Below, piece after piece: positions 94 through 23,610 of a DNA stretch of 23,610 nt. Position 1 is the first letter of the stretch; each line of letters begins with the position of its first letter. Both the position numbers and the translations under genes were made by a program. This DNA comes from a virus. The stretch spans positions 1 to 23,610 of IMG/VR virus record IMGVR_UViG_3300020459_000070. The stretch is one strand, 5' to 3'. Below the pieces are notes generated by a model. The model was not told the origin of the DNA, did no database searches, and was given only the letters and a program-made list of their open reading frames with translations.

Positions 94-621
94 TTGCTGA
101 TTACTCCGTCTGATTTGGCAAGGCTGAAAGGTGTCTCTTTGCCTGCGGTTTCTCAGCGCATCAAGCGCGGGGGATTGGCTGAGGCTGTTGTTGAGGTTGA
201 CGGTAAAAAGCTGATCCATAAAGACAAGGCCCTAGAGCTGTGGGATATGTCACGCCTAGGGCGACCACCTGCGGGGCTAGTCGATGCGACCAAGCAGCCG
301 CATGATGTAGCCGCTGCGCTTGTCGATGCGACGCCGTCCGAAGCGGTCCCCCCGTTGGCGGTGTCTAAGGCAAAGCGTGAGTTCTACTTGGCGGAACTGG
401 CACGGCTCCAGGTTGAGCAGCAGAGCGGGGAGCTCCTGGCTGCTGACGCTGTCAAGGCGTCTGCTTTCGCTATGGGTCGTGCCATCCGTGAGGGGTTGGC
501 GAACCTGGCTGATCGGTTGAGTTATGAGCTTGCGGGCGAAAGCGACGAATCGGTGATTAACAAAGTGCTCACTGATGAGCACCGGCAGGTGTTGGAAGAA
601 CTTGCAAAGGTCACGGCATGA
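94..621 (+). CDS. terS: Terminase small subunit (lambda Nu1-like)
   Basis: This 175-residue protein probably recognises the packaging site on phage DNA and hands it to the large terminase. Residues 1-45 look like a winged helix-turn-helix (SDLARLKGVSLPAVSQRIKR followed by a short wing), as in lambda gpNu1. The middle is a charged helix (about residues 92-118) and the C-terminal half is helical, matching the Nu1 layout of DNA-binding head plus assembly helices. Length is close to gpNu1 (181 residues). The start is taken as TTG at 94, because an in-frame stop lies at 49-51 and no ATG or GTG precedes the helix-turn-helix. The stop overlaps the terL start as ATGA. The function rests on the fold-like pattern and on position, since small terminases diverge strongly. 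Confidence 0.8.
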   Translation: MLITPSDLARLKGVSLPAVSQRIKRGGLAEAVVEVDGKKLIHKDKALELWDMSRLGRPPAGLVDATKQPHDVAAALVDATPSEAVPPLAVSKAKREFYLAELARLQVEQQSGELLAADAVKASAFAMGRAIREGLANLADRLSYELAGESDESVINKVLTDEHRQVLEELAKVTA

Positions 622-2471
622 ATTCATGGGAAACAGGATTTACCGACGGGCTGAGGCCAGATGAGCCGCTGACGGTTAGCGAATTTGCCGACAAGCACAT
701 CAGGCTCAGTTCAAAATCAAGCGCAGAACCCGGGCCGTGGCGAACTAGCAGAACGCCATTCTTGAGAGAGGTGATGGATGAGTTGAGCGCCGGCAGTTTG
801 ACTGAGCGTGTTGTGCTTATGTTTGGAGCGCAGACCGGGAAAACTTCCGCAGGGCTGAATTGGCTTGCCTACTTGATAGCGCATAACCCGGGGCCGGTTT
901 TGTGTGTCCAGCCGACTTTGGAGATGTGCAAGCGCTTGTCAAAGCAGCGGCTAGAGGACCTGATCAAAGACACGCCGATTGTTAATGAAAAGATTGCGCC
1001 GGCACGCGCGCGAGATAGTGACACGACACTTTTTAGTAAGACATTCCCCGGCGGGATCATGCTCCTTACCGGGGCCAATAGTCCAACGGGACTCAGGTCT
1101 GCTCCTTGTAAGAACATCTTCCTTGATGAGGTCGACGCGTACCCCGTCACCGCAGAAGGTGACGCCATCGAGCTTGCAATTAAGCGCGCGTCGACGTTTT
1201 CCAAGCGAAAGATCCTAATTACCAGCACCCCGACGATTAAGCACTTCTCCCGCGTTGAGGCTGAATATGAGCGCAGCGATCAGCGCCGCTGGTTTGTACC
1301 TTGCCCCCACTGCGGCTGGGAGCAGGTGCTGAGGTTCCCTCAGCTGAAATGGGAGAAAGATCGGCCTGAGACTGCTGAGTATGAATGCGAGAAATGCGGG
1401 GAACGATTCGGCGAACGCTGCAAAACTGAACTGTTGCGGAAAGGCCGCTGGCTGAGAACAGGGCCAGAGAATCGCAAGATTGCAGGCTTCCATCTTTCGT
1501 CGCTTTGTTCGCCGCTGGGTTGGCTGAGCTGGGCTGAGTTGGCGGACGAGTTTCTACGCGCGAAGGGCAACGCTGCGACGCTGCAGACGTTTGTGAATAC
1601 CCGCCTTGGGGAAACCTTCGAGCCTGACCATGTGGCCAAGGTCAGCGCAGAGGGCCTGCTGCAGAGGGTTGATGATTACGCAGAAGGGACAGTGCCTGTT
1701 GATGTTGTCCTGATCACGCAGGGCGTTGATGTGCAGCAGGACCGCCTAGAGATCTCGACCTGGGGATGGGGGCCAGGTGAGACGGCCTATCTCATCGATC
1801 ATCAGCAGCTGTGGGGTGATCCGATCCGTCCTGAGGTGTGGCAACAGCTAGACGCACTGATCACTACTGAGTGGCAACGAGTGGATGGCTACAAGCTGCG
1901 CTCAAAGGCAACGGCTGTTGATTCTGGATTTATGACGGCGACCGTCTACCAGTACGCACGCGAGCGGCAAGCCTTGGGAGTAATTGCCATTAAGGGGCAG
2001 AGCGTACGCAATAAGCCACCCCTAGGGAAGCCTGTACGGGTCGACATCAACCGCAAGGGCCAGACGCTTAAAAAGGGCGGGACGGTTTACCCGGTCGGTT
2101 CTGACACGATCAAATCCCTGTTGATCGGTCGGTTAAAGATCACAGAGCCAGAGGTAAAGGGCTCCCTGCATTTTCACCGCACGACAGCAGAGGAATACTT
2201 CAAACAGTTGACAGCCGAAAGGCAGCAAAGAAAGACCAGTAAGACAGGGGTTGTCAGCTATGAATGGGTCTTGACGCCGGGGATGCGCGCTGAGGCTCTC
2301 GATTGCATGGTGTATGCCTACGCGGCAGTGCATCGCTGCTATCAGTTATTTGACCGCCGGAGCATCTGGGATCAGATGGCTAAGCGTGTTGTAAGCCAAG
2401 ATAAGACCACGCAGCAGCCGATAACTAAACTGCAGCAGGCCTCAGCGTCAGGTTATGTCCATCAGTGGTAG
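618..2471 (+). CDS. terL: Terminase large subunit (GpA family)
   Basis: This is the ATP-driven DNA packaging motor and nuclease that cuts concatemers and pumps DNA through the portal. Walker A is visible as GAQTGKT at residues 70-76 and Walker B as FLDEVD with D170 and E171. A zinc-ribbon-like insertion has C229-x2-C232 and C257-x2-C260. The C-terminal nuclease part shows acidic residues in conserved surroundings: D371 in GVDVQQDRLE, D435 in AVDSGF and D562 in ALDCMVYA. At 617 residues it is close to lambda gpA (641). The gene overlaps terS by 4 bases. The lambda gpA assignment, as opposed to HK97- or T4-type TerL, fits the motif spacing and the lambda-like gene order downstream. Confidence 0.96.
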   Translation: MNSWETGFTDGLRPDEPLTVSEFADKHIRLSSKSSAEPGPWRTSRTPFLREVMDELSAGSLTERVVLMFGAQTGKTSAGLNWLAYLIAHNPGPVLCVQPTLEMCKRLSKQRLEDLIKDTPIVNEKIAPARARDSDTTLFSKTFPGGIMLLTGANSPTGLRSAPCKNIFLDEVDAYPVTAEGDAIELAIKRASTFSKRKILITSTPTIKHFSRVEAEYERSDQRRWFVPCPHCGWEQVLRFPQLKWEKDRPETAEYECEKCGERFGERCKTELLRKGRWLRTGPENRKIAGFHLSSLCSPLGWLSWAELADEFLRAKGNAATLQTFVNTRLGETFEPDHVAKVSAEGLLQRVDDYAEGTVPVDVVLITQGVDVQQDRLEISTWGWGPGETAYLIDHQQLWGDPIRPEVWQQLDALITTEWQRVDGYKLRSKATAVDSGFMTATVYQYARERQALGVIAIKGQSVRNKPPLGKPVRVDINRKGQTLKKGGTVYPVGSDTIKSLLIGRLKITEPEVKGSLHFHRTTAEEYFKQLTAERQQRKTSKTGVVSYEWVLTPGMRAEALDCMVYAYAAVHRCYQLFDRRSIWDQMAKRVVSQDKTTQQPITKLQQASASGYVHQW

Positions 2472-13010: not shown

Positions 13011-13648
13011 TGGCAGAGATTCGCGTCTATGGCCATCTGGCTCAGTTCTTAGGCCGTAGAAGGTTTTTTGCTGCTGTCTCTAGTGCGGCTGAGGCTATGC
13101 GTTTTCTGCTTTGCAACTTCCCGCAGCTGCAACGCCATATGGCCGACCAGAGGTACACAGTGAAGGCCGGCAGCTATGCCCTGGCAGAGGATGAACTAAC
13201 CAACCCCAGCGGACAGCAGACGATCAGCATCATTCCGGTGGTCTCAGGTGCTGGCGGCCGTGGCAGTGCAATCGGTCGCATTCTTGGCGGGATCGCGTTG
13301 GTTGCTGTTGGCGTCCTGACCGGTGGCTTTGGTGTTCCTCTTATTGCTTCCGCCATGGTGGGCATTGGCGCGAGCTTGGCGCTAGGTGGTGTGGCTTCTT
13401 TGCTGACGCCTGTCCCTAATGTTTCATCCGCTGGGCTTGCTGGGCCGGTTGGTGCTTCATCGTTCAGCGGCGGCCGGGCGATGCCTACCACGCGTGAATC
13501 TGAATTTGATCCCCAGAAGAGTTACAGCTTTTCAGGTATCCAAAACGTAAGCCGTGTTGGTGTCCCGATCAGCGTTGCCTATGGTGAGACCATCGTTGGC
13601 AGCATTGTGATTTCTGCCGGTTTTGACACTGAGCAAGTAACCGCCTAA
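13010..13648 (+). CDS. I: Tail assembly protein I
   Basis: This 212-residue protein belongs to the lambda gpI family. The N-terminal part is a ubiquitin-like fold (EIRVYGHLAQFLGRRRF, AEAMRFLLCNFPQLQRHM, ISIIPVVSGAGG). The middle is a glycine/alanine-rich hydrophobic segment (GGIALVAVGVLTGGFGVPLI and the following 30 residues), which could insert into or pass through a membrane. The C-terminus (SYSFSGIQNVSRVGVPISVAYGE) matches the part that contacts gpJ. I chose GTG at 13010, which overlaps the K stop as TAGTG; a TTG at 12971 in the same frame would overlap K by 40 bases and add 13 residues. Confidence 0.88.
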   Translation: MAEIRVYGHLAQFLGRRRFFAAVSSAAEAMRFLLCNFPQLQRHMADQRYTVKAGSYALAEDELTNPSGQQTISIIPVVSGAGGRGSAIGRILGGIALVAVGVLTGGFGVPLIASAMVGIGASLALGGVASLLTPVPNVSSAGLAGPVGASSFSGGRAMPTTRESEFDPQKSYSFSGIQNVSRVGVPISVAYGETIVGSIVISAGFDTEQVTA

Positions 13649-16600
13649 TGGGACGCCGCCGGCCTGTCATTGTCCATCAGCACGTAACGCAAAATATCAT
13701 TGCGCCCGTGCGGAATCCTGTCAGGACTGCTGACAGTTTGGCGAGCAAACAGCATCTCTCTTTCTTTGATCTGGTCAGTGAGGGTGAGATCGAGGGATTT
13801 GCAACGCCTAGCCGTTTGGGCCTGACACCCGGCAGTGCGGCTTATAGAAACGCAGCCCTGAAAGACGTTTACCTCAACGGGACATCAATCCTTGCTGCTG
13901 GCGCTGATGTCAACTCCCCTACAGATGCAGATTTCAATTTTAAGGAGGTGGGGCTTCAGTATCGATTAGGCACACAAAGCCAGACGTACATTCCCAGTTT
14001 TCTGGATTTTGAGCAAGCGGATAATTTAGACCCAAGTGCCAACCCTTTGTCAAATGGCGTCACCCCTGTGGCCACGTTTGCTGTTGGCCCTGAGACTGAA
14101 TTTTCAGTCAATACTGAGGTTCAATCAGGGACGCCCATCACTGCATCGATCACATCCCAAAATGTTGACGCAGTCCGCCTGACTTTGACTGTCCCGGCCC
14201 TGCAATCGTTTAGCTCACTGGGTGACATTTACGGGGCAAGCGTAGAGTTTACAGTTGCTGTCTATTACACAGGAGGCAGTGCGCCTAGCACAGCATGGGA
14301 GGATAAATTTACAGATCAGATCACAGGCAGGACGGCTGATAGGTATCAGCGAAGCTACAGGATTGATCTTGCAGACACTGGCTGGAGCGGTGTTGACATA
14401 CGCGTCACAAAATCAACGGCAGACTCAACAGATCAAACATCACTGCAAAATTCTCTGGTCTGGTCCTCTTACACAGAGCTAATCTACGAAAAACTACGCT
14501 ACCCACACAGTGCAATTGTTGCGCTGAGGCTTGATAGTGAGCAGCTAAGCAGCATCCCTGCCCGCAGCTATAAGTTACGGGGAAAGAAGGTCAAAATACC
14601 CAACGGCGTTACCGTAGATAATGACAACGGCCGGATTGTGTATCCAGCCGGCTACATATTCGACGGCACGCTTTCATCAGCTAAGGCGTGGTCATCAGAT
14701 CCGGCCTGGATCTTGTTTGACGTTCTGACATCCCGGTCAGGCTTTGGGTCTCATATTTCAGAGTCTGATCTGGATCTATTCGCTTTCTATGCGGCGTCTA
14801 AGTACAGCAGCGAACTTGTCAACGATTCCAGCGGAGGGCTTGAGCCGCGCTTCAGTTGCAATGTTCTTTTGAGTAATGGTGATGAGGCGTTCCGTCTAAT
14901 CAATGATCTGTCTAGCGTCATGCGCTGCATGCCTTACTGGTCAAGCGGCTCACTGACTATTTCACAAGACAGCCCGCAAGACGCTGCTTATCTTTTCACA
15001 CAGGCCAACGTCACCGATAAGGGGTTCAACTACAAAGGCACAAGTATCAAAGCAAGGCACACAGTCTGTGTTGTCTCTTATTTAGATATCGAGTCTCAAG
15101 AAATCGCCTATGAGGTCGTAGAGGATCACGCCGCAATTGCAAAATTCGGGGTCGTGCAAACAGAGATAAAGGCGTTTGCCTGTACTAGCCGCGGCCAGGC
15201 AAAGCGTTTAGGCGAATGGCTTCTGTATAGCGAAGCGCAAGAGGGCCAGGTCATCAGCTTTGAGTCCAGCGCCGACGCCGCCAGTGTCCTACGGCCTGGC
15301 CATGTGATCGAGGTTGCCGACCGTATGCGCAGCGTCAGCAGGCGCGGTGGCCGTTTGGTCTCAGCCTCTAGCGGTGTTGTCACTATTGACGACACATCAG
15401 AGACAGCCGTTGTGTTCACGACAGGGACAGTCGCCACGCTCTCTGTTGTTTTGCCTGATGGGAGCGTTGAGTCTCGCGAGGTCACAGGTAGCAATGGCGC
15501 CCAGCTCAATCTGATCAGTCCGTTTAGTACCACGCCAGCACAGAACGCCGTCTGGTTATTGGAAACAACAGGCGGGGAGGTTCTTCAGCCTTCTACCTGG
15601 CGGATTGTATCGATTGAGGAGAAAGAGCCGCATCTGTATCTATTCAACGCTGTTAGTTACAACGCCAGCAAATACAACCACATTGAGCGCGGGGAGGCCC
15701 TGCAAAATCGCAACATTACGGTCACTGAATATGCCCCTGCAGCGCCTGGCACTATCAGCGGAGAGTCCCGCTTTTATGTCGTCGGTGAGTTGTTGCTGCA
15801 GAAAATTAAGCTTGCCTGGGAGCCTGTAGCTGGGGTCAGTTCTTATCAGGTCCGCTACAGATACCAACAGCAAAATTGGGTGACCTTTGAGGTTGCGGGT
15901 CCATCGGCTGACATTTTGGAGGCCACAGAGGGTAGCTATGAAATCGAGATCAAAAGCCTCAATGCCACAGGTAGGCCGTCAAATGCAACGTCTGCCCTGA
16001 CCTATCAGCACAGTGGGAACCCTTCCCTACCTGATGATGTAACGGGCGCATCTTTGCTCCCCATCAGTGACACTCAGGCCATCATCACTTGGGACCGTTC
16101 GACACAGCAGGAGATCGTCTTAGCAGGAAGTGTGATCATCCGGCACACGTCAGCCACGGGGGGCGCTGCCACCTTTGCAAGCGCTCAAGACGTTGCGGTT
16201 GTTGTTGGCTCTCAGACGCAGAAGGTTGTCCCTCTGCTTGATGGGACTTACTTCCTGAAATTTCAAATCGGCACCGGCGCAACTGCTAAACGCAGTGAAA
16301 CGGCCGCTGCTCTACCAGTTACAGCCCCAAAGGTCCAGCAATCAAAACTGATTAGCACTGTTGCAGAGGAGACGGCCTTTAACGGCACCCTCAGCAATAT
16401 GTCAGCCCTAACCGTTGGTGGTACGCCTGGGATTGCCCTAGCTGCTGCTGGGCTGATTGATGAGGTGGCCAATCCCCCCGGTGTTGATCTAATCGGAAAT
16501 ATGGACCTTCTGGGCGGTGTTGCGCCTAGCGGGTCTTATGAATTCAGCACTGCTGGTTTGCTGACCTTGGCCGCCGGTGTTTTTGATGTGAACCTAACGC

Positions 16601-17130
16601 GTCGCATCACGTCGAATCCGTACATCGCAAACGATTACATCGACACATGGCCCAGCCCTCCCGGCATTGATGCGCGCGAAAAATTCGACGGCATCGAAGG
16701 GCAGAACGTCAACGCAAAGCTCTACGTTTCAAGCTCAACTGATGGCGTCACATATAGCGCATTCAGTGAGCTACAGAATGCTGTGGTCCGCGGTTCACAT
16801 TTCAAATTTAAGCTAGAGGCGACATCTGCCGCGACAAACGAAAACGTGCATATCAGTCAGCTAGGGGCCTTTGCTTATCTAGCCGCGCGTTCTGAGCAAG
16901 CCAGCGCAACAGGGGCAGCAGGCTTGCAGGCGGTCACCTTTGGGTCTGCTTTTTATGAGCCCCCGACGATCAGTGCAGCCATCAATGACGGAAGCATGCA
17001 GAGCGGTGATTTCGTCACGGTAAGCAGTGTTACTAGGACCGGCTTCAGCTTTACCTGTACCAGCAGCGCAGGTCAGAGCGTTGCCCGTGACATTATCTAC
17101 ACTGCATCAGGTCATGGAGCCCAGGTTTAA
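13648..17130 (+). CDS. J: Tail tip host-specificity protein J
   Basis: This 1160-residue protein is the central tail spike of the lambda gpJ family (1132 residues in lambda). The N-terminus (HLSFFDLVSEGEIEGF) and the block with RSGFGSHISESDLDLFAFY are family-typical and form the baseplate-like hub. From about residue 690 two fibronectin type III-like domains follow (KIKLAWEPVAGVSSYQVRYR and ITWDRSTQQ), then a strand-rich stretch. The last 70 residues (AFYEPPTISAAI, GDFVTVSSVTRTGFSF, IIYTASGHG) resemble the C-terminal carbohydrate-binding-like module seen on many phage fibres, which could touch the cell surface. Middle and C-terminal parts diverge from lambda. Start overlaps gpI as TAATG. Confidence 0.94.
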   Translation: MGRRRPVIVHQHVTQNIIAPVRNPVRTADSLASKQHLSFFDLVSEGEIEGFATPSRLGLTPGSAAYRNAALKDVYLNGTSILAAGADVNSPTDADFNFKEVGLQYRLGTQSQTYIPSFLDFEQADNLDPSANPLSNGVTPVATFAVGPETEFSVNTEVQSGTPITASITSQNVDAVRLTLTVPALQSFSSLGDIYGASVEFTVAVYYTGGSAPSTAWEDKFTDQITGRTADRYQRSYRIDLADTGWSGVDIRVTKSTADSTDQTSLQNSLVWSSYTELIYEKLRYPHSAIVALRLDSEQLSSIPARSYKLRGKKVKIPNGVTVDNDNGRIVYPAGYIFDGTLSSAKAWSSDPAWILFDVLTSRSGFGSHISESDLDLFAFYAASKYSSELVNDSSGGLEPRFSCNVLLSNGDEAFRLINDLSSVMRCMPYWSSGSLTISQDSPQDAAYLFTQANVTDKGFNYKGTSIKARHTVCVVSYLDIESQEIAYEVVEDHAAIAKFGVVQTEIKAFACTSRGQAKRLGEWLLYSEAQEGQVISFESSADAASVLRPGHVIEVADRMRSVSRRGGRLVSASSGVVTIDDTSETAVVFTTGTVATLSVVLPDGSVESREVTGSNGAQLNLISPFSTTPAQNAVWLLETTGGEVLQPSTWRIVSIEEKEPHLYLFNAVSYNASKYNHIERGEALQNRNITVTEYAPAAPGTISGESRFYVVGELLLQKIKLAWEPVAGVSSYQVRYRYQQQNWVTFEVAGPSADILEATEGSYEIEIKSLNATGRPSNATSALTYQHSGNPSLPDDVTGASLLPISDTQAIITWDRSTQQEIVLAGSVIIRHTSATGGAATFASAQDVAVVVGSQTQKVVPLLDGTYFLKFQIGTGATAKRSETAAALPVTAPKVQQSKLISTVAEETAFNGTLSNMSALTVGGTPGIALAAAGLIDEVANPPGVDLIGNMDLLGGVAPSGSYEFSTAGLLTLAAGVFDVNLTRRITSNPYIANDYIDTWPSPPGIDAREKFDGIEGQNVNAKLYVSSSTDGVTYSAFSELQNAVVRGSHFKFKLEATSAATNENVHISQLGAFAYLAARSEQASATGAAGLQAVTFGSAFYEPPTISAAINDGSMQSGDFVTVSSVTRTGFSFTCTSSAGQSVARDIIYTASGHGAQV

Positions 17131-17132
17131 GA

Positions 17133-19631
17133 ATGCCCAAGTCTGATCTGAATGCTCCCAATAGCGACGGGCTTACATACCGCAACACTGTAAATGGCGC
17201 GCTGCAGTCTCTTGCCAGCATGCAAGCCGGCAGCGGTGGTGCAACTAGCGTTGCCACGCTTCCCTCTACAACGTATGAAAACCAGCTTTTTTACGATGCC
17301 AGCGACGGCAAGATAAAACAAAAGCAGGCAGGCAGCTGGGTTGTTATTGGCGACCGTGCGGAGAATTGGGGGTTAGCAACTAAGGCAGCGCCGGCTTTCA
17401 CTGGTGCGGCTACTTTCTCCGGCAGTGTTTCGATCACTGCAACGTCTTTCATTCAGCTGCCCAGTGGGACAGACGCGCAGCGGCCCGGCTCACCGGCTGC
17501 AGGAATGCTTCGCTGGAATAGTGAGCAGGCGCGCTTTGAGGGTTACTACGGCGGCGCATGGGACGTTTTGACAACGTCTCTGCCTCTTGCTGATGACTCT
17601 GTAACTACAGCCAAAATTCTTGACGGGGCTGTTACTAAAAGCAAGCTAGCCAGCAGTGTTACGCGCGGCCAGGTGAAGGGCCGCAAGCTGGGTATGAACC
17701 TGTACAACGTATATACACGAGCAGTGAATATCCCTCTGACTAATATCTACCATTCAACCAGTATCCTCTCCTATGACCTGATCGATACTTACGGGCGCGG
17801 GAATATTCGTACAACTTCTTTCAGCAAGGCCAATGGCTCCAGCTTTATTTCTACTAATGGCGATGTTTTCGTCTGGGGGACAAGCTACTACTGGTCAATC
17901 AGCACCAAAAACTATTCACTATACGAGCCCACTCGCGTAAGCCTAAGGTCGCCAAAGTGGTTGCATGAGCTCTATTTTGGCGACTCATCGCTTAGCACTC
18001 TTGACATTAAAGTTCTGCCGATGGCGTCAGCATCACCGCAAGAGAGCTTTACTAGGCGTAATGGTACTGAGCGTTGGTCGATTTTTGGGACTACTTGGCA
18101 AGCCAACATGTTCTCCCCTTATCCCGCAATGCCAAAGGTTGCAGAACATTACCCGCATGAATTGTTTAATCATTATCTGACAGAAAACGGATGTTTATTT
18201 GTCGCTGGCTATGGTGGAACCTCCGCACTGCTAGGTAACGGGTGGTCTGGCGCTTCTGTTCATGTGCCAACTGAGGTGCAGTTTTTTAATACTGACGGAA
18301 CACATCTGACAGGCACTAGCAAGCCGAAGATTATTCATTTTGCCTGTTCGCATCAAGGGGGAGCTGGTATCGCAGGCGGGAACATAACGGTTACATTTTA
18401 CGCCGTAGACAATGCTGGCTATGTTTACAGCTGGGGAGACAACGCTTATGGCCAGCTGGGCATCAATACTACAGGCGGAGCTCAGCACTATGCCAAGCGA
18501 ATTGACCCGGTCAGATTTGGCAATGAGCCTGTCTATTACATAACAGCCGGCGGGTCTAATTATGGCCATGCGTTTGCAATTACTGGCACGGGCAAGTGCT
18601 ATGGGTGGGGCTACAACGCTTATGGCCAGCTGGGCATCATGAATACAACGACCACAAATGCGCCTGAGTCATTAACAACCATGACATCCAACGGCCTATA
18701 CCAAAAAGCTGTTGTCCACGTCATCACGACTGACTGGTACACAACAAGCTACCCCGGGTGTCACACGTTGTTTTTAACTACAACGGGTGAGGTGTTTGCA
18801 TGTGGCTATGCCAAGGACCACGGCGAATATCTCGGCGTTTATCAGACATTGACAGCCCAGAACATCACCAACCCCACCAAGTTGACAGATCACCCTGATG
18901 TCGCGAATGAAAAGGTCCTAGCAATGTATTTGTTTGGCAGCTCTTGGAACGCTCAGACGTATCTGATAACTGAGGGCGCCGGAGGGCGTCGGCTTGCCTA
19001 CAGCTTTGGGAACAACGCCAATGGCCAGCTGGGACGAACAACTGCAACCACTAGCCCGGCATCAGCTAGCGGGCAATTCGCTAATGGGACTTCCGACGAG
19101 TCTTGGTTTTGCCGTCAGATCAAATATCGCGATTATGGGGACACTGAGCTGGCGACCAGTGCGGTCACTGGGGCAAATGAAACCATCGGCTATAGCAACG
19201 AGCTGAGCGGTGGAAACACGATCTGGTATGGCAGCCAAGCGGGCACCTCATGGCGGCCAATGGGCAACCCCTGCGCGTTCTTCTCTGATTCAGATGGTTA
19301 TCACAACTACAGCACGGTTGTGATGCTTGACAGCCGCGGCACTTGCTGGACTTGTGGGAAGGAAGTCTTAAACGAAGGCGTGAACATGAACAACACAGAC
19401 AACAGCACCGGCGGGGTAACTTATGAGTGGTACTTTGCGCGATGGCTGCAACAGCCTGAGCAGGGCACTGGCTTTATGTTTAATACCTACAACTCAGGCA
19501 CACTTTCATACACTTTCCTTGGCGCGTCTGGGACTGTTTATGTCGGCGGATATAATTCAAGCTACGCGATGGGCAAACCCTACAATAATGGGTATTACCC
19601 AGTAACACCCCTTGCAATCACAACCGGCTAA
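17133..19631 (+). CDS. Large tail fibre with RCC1-like beta-propeller repeats
   Basis: This 832-residue protein follows gpJ and is likely a host-binding fibre. Residues 1-200 are an attachment and shaft region (QNLFYDASDGK-type segment, GTDAQRPGSPAAGMLRWN, ADDSVTTAKILDGAVTKSKL). From about residue 240 to 832 it carries RCC1-type repeats. Clear copies are YSWGDNAYGQLG (W434), YGWGYNAYGQLG (W492) and YSFGNNANGQLG (F625). Weaker ones begin near residues 248, 356, 557, 741 and 805 (VFVWGTS, FVAGYGG, FACGYAK, TCGKEV, VGGYNSS). Seven or eight blades would make a closed propeller, which usually binds proteins or sugars at its face. Two repeats share a perfect 27-base DNA match, showing recent duplication. 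The binding target cannot be told from sequence. Confidence 0.85.
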   Translation: MPKSDLNAPNSDGLTYRNTVNGALQSLASMQAGSGGATSVATLPSTTYENQLFYDASDGKIKQKQAGSWVVIGDRAENWGLATKAAPAFTGAATFSGSVSITATSFIQLPSGTDAQRPGSPAAGMLRWNSEQARFEGYYGGAWDVLTTSLPLADDSVTTAKILDGAVTKSKLASSVTRGQVKGRKLGMNLYNVYTRAVNIPLTNIYHSTSILSYDLIDTYGRGNIRTTSFSKANGSSFISTNGDVFVWGTSYYWSISTKNYSLYEPTRVSLRSPKWLHELYFGDSSLSTLDIKVLPMASASPQESFTRRNGTERWSIFGTTWQANMFSPYPAMPKVAEHYPHELFNHYLTENGCLFVAGYGGTSALLGNGWSGASVHVPTEVQFFNTDGTHLTGTSKPKIIHFACSHQGGAGIAGGNITVTFYAVDNAGYVYSWGDNAYGQLGINTTGGAQHYAKRIDPVRFGNEPVYYITAGGSNYGHAFAITGTGKCYGWGYNAYGQLGIMNTTTTNAPESLTTMTSNGLYQKAVVHVITTDWYTTSYPGCHTLFLTTTGEVFACGYAKDHGEYLGVYQTLTAQNITNPTKLTDHPDVANEKVLAMYLFGSSWNAQTYLITEGAGGRRLAYSFGNNANGQLGRTTATTSPASASGQFANGTSDESWFCRQIKYRDYGDTELATSAVTGANETIGYSNELSGGNTIWYGSQAGTSWRPMGNPCAFFSDSDGYHNYSTVVMLDSRGTCWTCGKEVLNEGVNMNNTDNSTGGVTYEWYFARWLQQPEQGTGFMFNTYNSGTLSYTFLGASGTVYVGGYNSSYAMGKPYNNGYYPVTPLAITTG
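18439..18639 (+). repeat. Perfect 27-base direct repeat in RCC1 blades
   Basis: The 27 bases at 18439-18465 recur without change at 18613-18639, 174 bases (58 codons) apart, in frame and at matching blade positions. A third copy at 19012-19033 matches 20 of 22 bases. Matching at silent positions implies recent duplication or gene conversion rather than protein-level conservation alone. Confidence 0.9.
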
Positions 19632-20472: not shown

Positions 20473-21504
20473 ATGGCGAACGTCATCCGCATAAAGAAGA
20501 GGGCGGCTAGCGGCCAGGCCGGTGCCCCTTCATCTCTCGCGCCGAGTGAGCTTGCTTTCAACGAAAACAGCAGTGATCTTTCTCTGTATTACGGCCTAGG
20601 CGATGACGGCTCAGGGGGTGCAACGTCAGTTATCAAGATCGCCGGGCCGGGCCACTATTTCAGCAAGACAGACACTAGAACAGCCAACACCGTCCTAGCT
20701 GGGCCTAGTTCAGGCACAGCAGCTGCGCCAACCTTCCGCAGCTTGGTTGCTGGTGACATACCAACGCTATTAGCGGTAAAGATCAGCGATTTTGACACTC
20801 AAGTCAGAACCAGCCGCATTGATCAGATGGCAGCCCCTACGTCGTCTGTGGCGTTCGGCTCCCAGAAAATCACTGGGCTTGCAACGTGCGTAGCTGACAC
20901 GGACGGGGCAAACAAAGCCTACGTTGATGGCGTTGCTCAGGGCCTCGCAGTTAAGGACTCCGCAAGAGTCGCGACGACAGCGAACATCACACTCGGCGGT
21001 AACCAAATGGTTGACGGCGTTTCGGTTATTGCGGGGGATCGCGTCTTAGTTAAAGATCAGAGCTCTGCAAGTGCCAACGGTCTATATGTAGTTTCAGCGC
21101 AAACCTGGGCACGCGCTGACGACTTGGACACAGGGGCTAATGCGGCCGGTGCTTTTGTCTTTATTGAAAGCGGCACGACTCAAGCGGATCGCGGCTTTGT
21201 TTGCACATCAAATACAGGCTCCGCGGTTGTTGGGACCAACAACCTTTCATTCACGCAGTTCTCGTCAACCGGTGAGGTTTCGGCTGGTGATGGATTAGAT
21301 AAGACAGGCCTTGTCTTTTCTGTCGATCTCAAGGCGAATGGCGGCCTAGTGATTGAGTCTACTGAGGTAGCTGTTGACCTAGGCGCTTCTTCTATCACTG
21401 GGACGCTAGCCCTTGCTGATGGTGGGACAGGGTCAACAACAGCCAGCGGAGCACGAACAAATCTAGGCATCCCAGACCTAGAGATTGATGGGGGGACCTA
21501 CTGA
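20473..21504 (+). CDS. Tail fibre protein
   Basis: This 343-residue protein is probably a trimeric fibre. The N-terminus (MANVIRIKKRAASGQAGAPS, then LAPSELAFNE and LYYGLGDDG) is an attachment module also seen, in shorter form, in the next gene. The middle has repeated short strands (SVAFGSQKITGLATC, AYVDGVAQGLAVKDSARVAT, RVLVKDQSSASANGLYVV), a pattern common in fibre shafts, where the KDQ and NGLYVV segments recur in many phages. The end has GTLALADGGTGSTTASGART, a motif often placed just before a fibre tip domain. No tip domain is present, so the tip may be supplied by the next gene. Start at ATG follows the prior stop by 3 bases. Confidence 0.85.
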   Translation: MANVIRIKKRAASGQAGAPSSLAPSELAFNENSSDLSLYYGLGDDGSGGATSVIKIAGPGHYFSKTDTRTANTVLAGPSSGTAAAPTFRSLVAGDIPTLLAVKISDFDTQVRTSRIDQMAAPTSSVAFGSQKITGLATCVADTDGANKAYVDGVAQGLAVKDSARVATTANITLGGNQMVDGVSVIAGDRVLVKDQSSASANGLYVVSAQTWARADDLDTGANAAGAFVFIESGTTQADRGFVCTSNTGSAVVGTNNLSFTQFSSTGEVSAGDGLDKTGLVFSVDLKANGGLVIESTEVAVDLGASSITGTLALADGGTGSTTASGARTNLGIPDLEIDGGTY

Positions 21505-22109
21505 TGGCAAATACCATCGTCCTCAAAAGATCTTTCACAGCAGCATCCCAGCCGGCTGTTAACGATTTGGCGCAGGGGGAGGTTGCCTGGAATGTTGCGG
21601 ATGGGATGCTGTATGGCCGCCAGACCGTCGGCATGAATGATTACATCTGCGAAGTAGGCGCAAAGCCGACCCAAACGGCTAGCACATCTGCTAGCGATCA
21701 CTTCCTGCTTTTCTCAGATTCAAGCACTACCGGGGCGGGCTATTTCTACAAAGCAGCCGGGATCAAAGTGCAACCCAGCACCAACTCACTGATCTGTACA
21801 GGCAACGTCACCGCCTACTCAGACATCCGCCTAAAAAAAGACATCAGACCAATCTCTGATCCTATTAAGAAGGTGCAGCAAATCAGGGGCTGCACTTTTG
21901 AGTGGCTTCATGGTGCTGCATCTGCTGCAGGCCGTTCGGTTGGTGTTATCGCCCAAGAGGTTGAGGCGGTCCTCCCTGAAGCTGTGCATACAGGCGACGA
22001 CGGATACAAAAGCCTGGCCTATGGCAACATGATCGGCCTGCTCATTGAGGCGATCAAAGAGCAACAGACCCAGATAGAAGCGCTCCAGGAGGCCCTAGGT
22101 AATGCCTAA
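21504..22109 (+). CDS. Tail fibre with self-cleaving S74 chaperone domain
   Basis: This 201-residue protein has a short fibre part (residues 1-105) followed by a peptidase S74 intramolecular chaperone. The signature is SDIRLKKDI from residue 106: S106 and K111 have the Ser-x4-Lys spacing of the known catalytic dyad. The following QIRGCTFEWLHG, VGVIAQEVEAVLPEAV, and YGNMIGLLIEAIKEQQTQIE are the helical chaperone core. The domain should help the trimer fold and then cut itself away just before S106, leaving a mature chain of only about 105 residues. Residues 1-35 (MANTIVLKRSF, QPAVNDLAQGEVAWN) match the N-terminal attachment module of the preceding gene. The stop overlaps the next gene by 8 bases. 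Confidence 0.93.
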   Translation: MANTIVLKRSFTAASQPAVNDLAQGEVAWNVADGMLYGRQTVGMNDYICEVGAKPTQTASTSASDHFLLFSDSSTTGAGYFYKAAGIKVQPSTNSLICTGNVTAYSDIRLKKDIRPISDPIKKVQQIRGCTFEWLHGAASAAGRSVGVIAQEVEAVLPEAVHTGDDGYKSLAYGNMIGLLIEAIKEQQTQIEALQEALGNA

Positions 22110-22515
22110 GGAAACCATCCCTGAGCATTCAGTGCCCTACACAGAGGAGCACCAACAGGAGGCACCTGCAGCCCCTACCAGCGAGTACACCTGGAAAGTT
22201 CTCTCTTTAGATGTCAAAAATACCCGCTATCACCAGCAGGTGGTCCTTTCAGCTGTCGTTGAGGGTTCAGTCAAGACAAGCGACGGCTACAGCGCCACAA
22301 CAAAGCAGCTAGTCGACCTTCTGGTTCCAGATGATCTTGATGTTGAGTATTTCAGGGACTTTGCCCTGCTCAGTGAGGAAAATGTTCTGGCGTGGGCCTT
22401 TCAGCGTCAGCCTAAGGAATCTTTCTATCTAGAGCTAGAGCAGCAAGTTGCACTATTGCGCCAGAGATATTTCCGCGCGTATGGGATCTTTCTTCCCTGG
22501 TTTGTGCATCCTTAG
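22102..22515 (+). CDS. Small fibre-associated protein of unknown function
   Basis: This 137-residue protein has a proline/glutamate-rich lead (residues 1-27), then TWKVLSLDVKN, a strand-rich part (HQQVVLSAVVEGSVKTSDGY), then an acidic helix with ENVLAWAFQRQ and LELEQQVALLRQR. The order TW-x-hhh-LDV, DGY-x-A, 'LSEENVLAW' and a Q-rich helix resembles a small family that I recall beside tail fibre genes in cyanophages. Its function is unknown to me. It overlaps the S74 fibre gene by 8 bases and lies 2 bases before the glycine-rich adhesin gene, so it is probably made with them and may be a fibre assembly factor or adaptor. Confidence 0.75.
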   Translation: MPKETIPEHSVPYTEEHQQEAPAAPTSEYTWKVLSLDVKNTRYHQQVVLSAVVEGSVKTSDGYSATTKQLVDLLVPDDLDVEYFRDFALLSEENVLAWAFQRQPKESFYLELEQQVALLRQRYFRAYGIFLPWFVHP

Positions 22516-22517
22516 CA

Positions 22518-23610
22518 ATGGTTCTACAAACATCTGGTGCTATCAGTCTGAGCGATGTTGAGGGTGAGTTTCAAGGCAGCGCGCCTACGTCTATTGATGA
22601 ATACTACCGGGGCGGTGTGTATGTACCGGATACAACCGCGAACGCTTCTATTCCTCAATCGGGGACAATCGACCTAGGCGATTTTTATGGTGGGGACGAT
22701 ACCCCAGCTACAACAGATCTTTATTTTTTTAATTCAAACACTTTCGAGAACTGCGGGAGCGGAGGCCAAGACGGCCCAACGTTGGCGCAGTGTCAAAGCA
22801 CATACGCAGGGCAGGCTTTCCTCTCCAGTCACTTTTCAGTGAACAACGGCATTCAGCAGTGGGTTGTTCCTTCTACGGCTAACTACACATTCAAAATCAG
22901 GGGCGGCCATGGCGGGGCCGCAAAAACTAATTACAACACGAGCGGCACGTCTGGCGGAGAAGGTGCTTACCTTCAATTTGACATCGACTTAAACATGGGC
23001 GATGTCCTCAAGCTTGTCGTTGGTCAGGAACCAACCTATGCGGTAAACCCTGGCGGCGGGGGTGGGTCTTGGGTTGTTAAGTATGACTCAGACACTGCGA
23101 CAGAGACACTGATTGCAGTTGCTGGCGGTGGCGGTGGCGGTGGTACGAATGGCACCAGTTACACAGCCACAGATCAAGGCGGGCAGTCTGGGACTGCTGG
23201 CGGCACCGGGCGGCATAACAGCCAATACATCGGGTCAAACGGCGGCACGTCTGGGAACGGCGGCGAATCAGCCGGCGGGTGGAATGGTTCAGGCGGTGGC
23301 GGGGCTTGGAATGGCGACGGTGATGAGGTCTGGTTTACCTCGGGCGGTTCTGGCTCTAGCCAGCCTCAATACGCCAACAGGAACGGCAAGGGCTGGAGCA
23401 ATGGGCTGCAGGGTGGCACTAGACGGGTCTACGGGTCTTACAACAACGCTCACGGCGGATTTGGTGGAGGCGGTGCGGGTGGTATTCACCCTTACCCCGG
23501 CTACGGCGGCGGGGGCGGTGGTTACAGCGGCGGTGGCGGTGGCTGGTGGAATGGCCGGCCGTGCGAAGGCGGCGGCGGGGGCAGTTTTGTCGCTGCTAGT
23601 GCAATCAATG
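22518..23610 (+). CDS. Glycine-rich tail adhesin, ALK-type glycine-rich domain (truncated by window edge)
   Basis: The frame is open for 364 codons and runs off the right edge, so the C-terminus is missing. Residues 1-55 (AISLSDVEGEFQGSAPTSID, YYRGG, IDLGDFYGG) match an N-terminal attachment module I recall from cyanophage fibres. From about residue 72 the pattern is close to the glycine-rich domain of the animal receptor ALK: F-x2-C79 followed by GPTLAQC92, GIQQWVVPSTANYTFKIRGG, GDVLKLVVGQ, LIAVAGGGGGGG, then many glycine runs (GGFGGGGAGG, GYGGGGGGYSGGGGGWW). These glycine runs are expected to form poly-glycine II helices, as known in ALK and in some phage tip adhesins. It is likely a receptor-binding tip. 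No signal peptide is seen. Confidence 0.88.
   Translation, partial: MVLQTSGAISLSDVEGEFQGSAPTSIDEYYRGGVYVPDTTANASIPQSGTIDLGDFYGGDDTPATTDLYFFNSNTFENCGSGGQDGPTLAQCQSTYAGQAFLSSHFSVNNGIQQWVVPSTANYTFKIRGGHGGAAKTNYNTSGTSGGEGAYLQFDIDLNMGDVLKLVVGQEPTYAVNPGGGGGSWVVKYDSDTATETLIAVAGGGGGGGTNGTSYTATDQGGQSGTAGGTGRHNSQYIGSNGGTSGNGGESAGGWNGSGGGGAWNGDGDEVWFTSGGSGSSQPQYANRNGKGWSNGLQGGTRRVYGSYNNAHGGFGGGGAGGIHPYPGYGGGGGGYSGGGGGWWNGRPCEGGGGGSFVAASAIN

Follow-up and report, generated by a model that had tools for sequence, protein, structure and literature searches.

The fibre-tip protein gp24 of cyanophage Pam3, which has a related glycine-rich and TNF-like fold and for which host binding has been shown or proposed, resembles ALK of C. 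elegans with a deviation of 2.6 Å over 125 CA atoms (PMC9608196). Host binding has also been shown or proposed for the related fibre tip gp38 of T-even phages (PMC12892980), and in a Klebsiella phage fibre the host-adaptation mutations fall in a related glycine-rich/TNF-like domain (PMC12671077). The poly-glycine bundles of ALK and of gp38 of phage S16 have been named together before (PMC13243192). Similarity of a phage fold to ALK is therefore already published for Pam3 gp24. On a sequence-level link of the ALK glycine-rich domain (GRD) to phages or bacteria, the literature that we searched holds just the fold comparison in PMC9608196 and the remarks on poly-glycine bundles in PMC13243192. 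It gives no account of a GRD family defined by sequence, of its cysteine pattern, or of its cellular members; two ALK structure papers from 2021 lay outside the search.

Here, we analyse 23,610 bases of one virus record (IMGVR_UViG_3300020459_000070), referred to as the window, at the right edge of which an open reading frame (ORF) encodes a GRD. The domain is a true homologue of the ligand-binding TNF-like and glycine-rich domain of ALK and LTK. Within a large family of prokaryotic and phage proteins that can be recognised by sequence, the unusual fold known from these animal receptors forms one branch, and the picture of this family gives a clearer evolutionary frame than we found in print in the literature searched.

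Gene content of the window and layout of the GRD ORF

The genes of the window are arranged in the head-to-tail order of a siphophage (Table 1). The terminase gene is followed by portal-, protease/capsid-, and tape-measure-like ORFs, assigned from gene order and ORF content only. The terminase match hints at a cyanobacterial host but does not establish one. The protein with RCC1-like repeats is also conserved in L004, the phage locus that encodes a complete homologue of the GRD protein, and its matches to most isolated phages are limited to the part around residues 95–143. Small genes are located between the RCC1-repeat gene and the 20473–21504 stretch, behind the J gene. The S74 chaperone domain is encoded by a separate gene a short distance upstream of the GRD gene, and the gene 2 bases upstream of the GRD ORF has a weak match to DUF7936, below the cut-off. 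The GRD ORF is the fastest-changing of the eight genes compared, with 85% identity to L004 versus 89–98%. Long open frames overlap the glycine-rich part on the same strand (23113–23610) and on the opposite strand (23289–23609), and are probably by-products of runs of GGN codons rather than genes.

Table 1. Coordinates of the features of the window
Feature	Position	Strand	Remarks
Terminase	618-2471		Nearest large terminases: Synechococcus phages S-CBS1 and S-CBS3, 44%
Tail-tip protein J (host specificity)	13648..17130	+	First gene of the tail-fibre region
Tail-region protein with RCC1-like (beta-propeller) repeats	17133..19631	+	832 aa
Gene with a decoration/virion-protein match	20473-21504
Gene with peptidase S74 (endosialidase) chaperone domain	21504..22109	+	201 aa; tail-fibre type
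Gene 2 bases upstream of the GRD ORF	22102..22515	+	137 aa; conserved in L004
GRD ORF	22518..23610	+	364 aa inside the window; open at the right edge
N-terminal phage module	22518..22694	+	Residues 1-59 (SGAISLSDV..EYYRGG.YVP...IP.SG.IDL.DFYGG); phrog_30374, 3e-9
ALK-type GRD	22713..23609	+	Residues 66-364; predicted TNF-like beta-sandwich strands and poly-glycine bundle
F76-x2-C79-G...GPTLAQC92 block	22743..22793	+	Cysteine spacing as in ALK/LTK
GIQQWVVP ... YTFKI	22848..22898	+	Residues 111-118 and 123-127; sandwich strands
GDVLKLVVGQ strand motif	22998..23027	+	Residues 161-170
Glycine-rich part	23052..23591	+	Predicted poly-glycine bundle of the GRD

The product of the GRD ORF begins MVLQTSGAISLSDVEG, with no signal peptide recognisable by eye. 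Its N-terminal module also occurs in Vibrio and Xanthomonas phages, in proteins that are otherwise unrelated, and probably serves to attach the protein to the virion. The remainder of the ORF is occupied by the GRD, the final strand of which is absent from the window because the gene runs off the record. The initial annotation had placed the domain at 22731–23610, which is the right location, although both the ORF and the domain start slightly earlier. The complete homologue in L004 has 1024 residues, and its GRD is 83% identical to that of the window. The sequence GPTLAQC spans residues 86–92, and Cys79 and Cys92 probably form a disulfide equivalent to that of ALK and LTK. Glycine makes up 16% of the head (residues 73–175) and 37% of the sequence from residue 176 on, with glycine runs extending from the GDVLKLVVGQ motif to the right edge.

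Sequence homology with ALK and LTK

The order of motifs in which the initial annotation had recognised ALK is present in full at the places given, and the family profile, the predicted fold, and a shuffle test of the head agree that the match is specific to the GRD of ALK and LTK. The low-glycine head, without the glycine runs, was compared with 5,000 composition-preserving shuffles. The Smith-Waterman score of the window head against human ALK is 120, compared to a shuffle mean of 29 (SD 5.3, maximum 68; Gumbel p ~2e-10), and that against LTK is 135, compared to an average of 29 and a maximum of 54 for 5,000 shuffles (p ~4e-12). In the alignment to human ALK, 36 of 86 residues are identical, 27 of which are not glycines. 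The match is thus not confined to low complexity, and the C-GPT-QC-GIQ-W-VP block aligns.

Used alone, the window ORF matches only ALK and LTK in the PDB, and does so weakly (best E = 0.004). The search against the Pfam family PF12810 (gathering cut-off 24.5 bits), which the initial annotation had proposed as a check, gave no match for the window sequence, and neither did NCBIfam or the Gly_rich_2 profile (PF21722), which does match P0004 and P0005, neighbours in cyanophage S-SZBM1. PF12810 matches 14 of 45 relatives at E <= 0.01, the best at 1.8e-10; an archaeal GRD scores 47.9 bits, and some cellular members are above the cut-off. The head block lies outside PF12810: in the matches listed, the alignment to the profile begins directly behind the GIQ-W-VP strand. 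The S-SZBM1 protein P0002 matches ALK in the PDB at 1e-17, and its non-glycine part alone at 4e-11 with a bias of 0.6. In the PDB, a family profile built from 45 members, 42 of them viral, matches LTK at 7.7e-37, ALK at ~1e-36, and the worm receptor SCD-2 at 1e-18, followed by the next protein at 0.55. The match to LTK and ALK is collinear over profile positions 10–286 of 288, and the LTK head alone matches the family profile at 7.5e-19 with a bias correction of 1.2 bits.

Predicted fold

The GRDs of L004 and of the window were modelled using AlphaFold (AF2) with pLDDT values of 89 and 86 and pTM values of 0.92 and 0.89, respectively. The predictions contain a TNF-like sandwich with an inserted poly-glycine bundle. 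Foldseek searches of the PDB returned 21 ALK, LTK, and SCD-2 chains per model at E < 0.001 and no other protein, in agreement with the ALK-like fold that had been proposed from the sequence. The TM values for ALK and LTK are mostly 0.6–0.7. The next match of the L004 model is the Pam3 fibre (PDB: 7yfw), with E = 0.15. The nearest solved structure is therefore a human receptor rather than a phage protein.

Occurrence in phages, bacteria, and archaea

A single-sequence search for relatives found none, and alignment-based searches succeeded. They located 80 GRD loci from IMG/VR in addition to L004. The domain was found in 32 of 189 genomes of the phylum that contains a Myxococcales genome, where heads are up to 49% identical to that of human ALK, in 6 of 147 genomes of an archaeal phylum, and in 3 of 100 genomes of the Neomarinimicrobiota phylum. 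The cellular GRD proteins look secreted and have DUF4215, MopE-type metal-binding, or Ig-like domains as companions. In one Myxococcales MAG (G003, containing L024) 13 places match the GRD profile, and these apparently form a paralogue family of secreted proteins. Because bacteria, archaea, and phages all carry the domain widely, its kinship with ALK and LTK, although real, is not peculiar to the phage of the window.

Both animal sequences have the cysteine pair, as do all 9 archaeal sequences and 32 of the 33 bacterial ones. By its spacing pattern, it was recognised in just 4 of 135 phage domains, plus the window phage. The pair may be a disulfide that secreted proteins retain and that has mostly disappeared from proteins assembled in a reducing cytoplasm. 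The loss from most phage copies fits assembly in the host cytoplasm; the window phage departs from this pattern.

Of 80 complete phage proteins, 74 have the GRD as their C-terminal domain, behind a median of 57 residues. The architecture of L004 belongs to the other six, with more than 40 residues behind the GRD. Two or three ALK-type GRD genes are located close together in single phage contigs (L018, L027, L028, L029, L030, and 21 further IMG/VR loci), as if they were a set of alternative binding proteins. Matches to the GRD fold in BFVD include viral proteins that UniProt calls "receptor protein-tyrosine kinase", for example those of Caulobacter phage CcrBL10, cyanophage S-RIM12, and Tetraselmis virus 1. 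This name, which our results do not support as a function, was probably transferred from ALK in error; a gene of the lake phage DSL-LC01 is labelled "ALK tyrosine kinase receptor" in GenBank. For phage biology, the family provides a fold name for many proteins that are listed as hypothetical or mislabelled as receptor kinases.

Phylogeny and possible origin of the domain

A careful unrooted tree was calculated from 64 rows and 271 columns, with two vertebrate sequences (ALK and LTK) representing the animals and an uncertain alignment of the glycine-rich part. The window stands together with all 23 other phage rows and 4 bacterial rows on one side of a branch supported at 99 (bootstrap) and 92 (SH-aLRT); on the other side are ALK and LTK with 26 bacterial and 8 archaeal rows. 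The group of four phages to which the window belongs is firm (98/96), and ALK and LTK adjoin Myxococcales paralogues with a support of just 88–89. Head identity to ALK has a median of 44% in archaea, 42% in bacteria, and 34% in phages; the window head has 35%. A quick tree of 87 rows placed the long-branched phage row L045 weakly with the animals (79); this row was omitted from the careful tree. The GRDs of four bacterial proteins (L117, L118, L121, and L126) group with those of phages, and the proteins that host them carry MopE-type, hexapeptide, Dicty_CTDC, or weak DUF4215 repeats. They may reflect exchanges between phages and bacteria.

It is scarcely credible that the resemblance to ALK is one of glycine-rich low complexity and convergence with no common descent. 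Glycine runs align with any glycine-rich sequence, and the window alone is a weak match in the PDB and misses PF12810; nevertheless, the low-glycine head stands far above its shuffles, the profile match to the LTK head carries little bias correction in an alignment that is collinear throughout, and the cysteine spacing is conserved in bacteria, archaea, and animals. As far as sequence can decide, the head shuffle test led us to reject a low-complexity artefact. Direct exchange of the domain between phages and early animals would also account for the homology of their domains and for the ALK-like cysteines of the window, and a clade of the animals with the small group of the window is above the 5% rejection level (p-AU 0.063). 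However, a clade of the animals with all phage rows is rejected (p-AU 0.0096), ALK and LTK, the two vertebrate sequences sampled, fall among the cellular copies, and bacterial and archaeal heads are closer to ALK, which makes such an exchange very improbable. The kinship of phage and animal domains that the initial annotation had suggested holds, whereas the special link that it had drawn between phage receptor binding and animal receptors is not supported, the tree placing ALK and LTK on the cellular side.

Tentatively, and with somewhat less than even confidence, we propose that animals or their ancestors took the ligand-binding domain of the ALK family from a secreted bacterial or archaeal module that is also deployed on phage tails. 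A cytokine receptor and phage host recognition would then share one inherited scaffold. The prokaryotic and phage family offers a testable evolutionary source of the ALK domain, a deep alignment with which its scaffold residues could be separated from the binding surface, and simple soluble homologues.

Proposed role of the GRD protein

We consider it probable, with moderate confidence, that the GRD ORF encodes a modular tail-associated protein that docks on the virion by its N-terminal module and binds the host surface by its GRD. The ORF would be the start of such a protein of a small siphophage. Behind the short docking module, the next ~310 residues would form a beta-sandwich head, the long glycine loops of which fold into a rigid poly-glycine bundle presenting variable loops, and further beta repeats and a C-terminal domain would come after the GRD, as in L004. 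The GRD most likely binds a host-surface molecule during adsorption, either alone or together with the C-terminal domain. The domain may long have served secreted proteins of bacteria and archaea as a binding module; phages carry it in tail and virion genes, and the animal ALK/LTK lineage would carry a relative of the cellular form. We infer the role from the gene order, in a tail region behind J, the RCC1 protein, and the S74 gene, and from the N-terminal module; an adhesin is plausible but unproven. The rapid divergence of the ORF from L004 and the roles published for similar folds (PMC9608196, PMC12671077, PMC12892980) also speak for host binding.

The GRD might instead have a structural or spacing function partway along a fibre, leaving host recognition to the ~320 residues that end the protein in L004. 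In that protein, the GRD (residues ~60–385 of 1024) is followed by sub-threshold Calx-beta-like repeats and then by an extensive C-terminal region that has no known relatives, the C-terminal parts having no match in the PDB or PHROGs and just weak matches in cyanophages. With 640 residues behind it, the GRD need not be the tip here, and since many related phages have two or three adjacent GRD genes, not every copy need bind a host. Nevertheless, the L004 architecture is a minority one, the GRD is the last domain in most complete phage proteins, as expected of a distal binding domain, and receptor binding has been shown or proposed for fibre tips of related fold (PMC9608196, PMC12671077), so we regard a spacer as unlikely, if worth bearing in mind. 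It is improbable that the product, like its bacterial and archaeal relatives, is secreted or displayed at the cell surface during infection or lysogeny rather than built into the virion. The secreted appearance and companion domains of those relatives, and the cysteine pair that the window shares with them, would fit such a protein. Furthermore, the S-SZBM1 homologue gp50 is absent from the 30 proteins of purified virions, in which its neighbours 51–54 are present (PMC9146016, Table 1), and the virion location of the GRD protein is therefore putative. Against secretion, the gene is located within the tail region, the protein start has no recognisable signal peptide, and the N-terminal module is shared with other phage proteins.

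Comparison with known systems

The GRD of the window has the same order of motifs, spacing of head cysteines, collinear glycine-rich part, and predicted fold as human ALK and LTK (PDB: 7mzy, 7nx0, 7n00, 9g5i), C. elegans SCD-2 (PDB: 7lir), and the PF12810 family (ALK_LTK_GRD). It differs from ALK and LTK in being embedded in a phage tail-region protein and in having a sequence below PF12810 detection. The complete L004 homologue has no Pfam match to a kinase domain; the gene of the window itself is cut.

The Pam3 tail fibre gp24 (PDB: 7yfw) has the same TNF-like and glycine-rich architecture, but it has no sequence match to the window and was reached by Foldseek only at the E-value given above. 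The gp38 adhesins of S16 and T-even phages use a poly-glycine bundle for host binding (PMC13243192, PMC12892980), but have a beta-helix in place of the TNF-like head (PMC9608196). The comparison with S16 made in the initial annotation proved weak: gp38 was found neither by sequence in the PDB nor among the fold matches listed, and was rejected as the closest relative.

The same GRD is present in gp50 of S-SZBM1, gp65 of S-CREM1, and the "ALK" protein of DSL-LC01. The GRD of S-SZBM1 is 41% identical to that of the window over 86 aligned columns; unlike the window, its head has no cysteines, and the domain is C-terminal in S-SZBM1 and S-CREM1. The proteins of Myxococcales (L024, L107–L140) and of archaeal MAGs (L025, L141–L148) contain the same domain with a C-...-GP-x4-C head, and have DUF4215, MopE-type, or Ig-like companions instead of the phage N-terminal module. 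These proteins are the nearest prokaryotic relatives of ALK.
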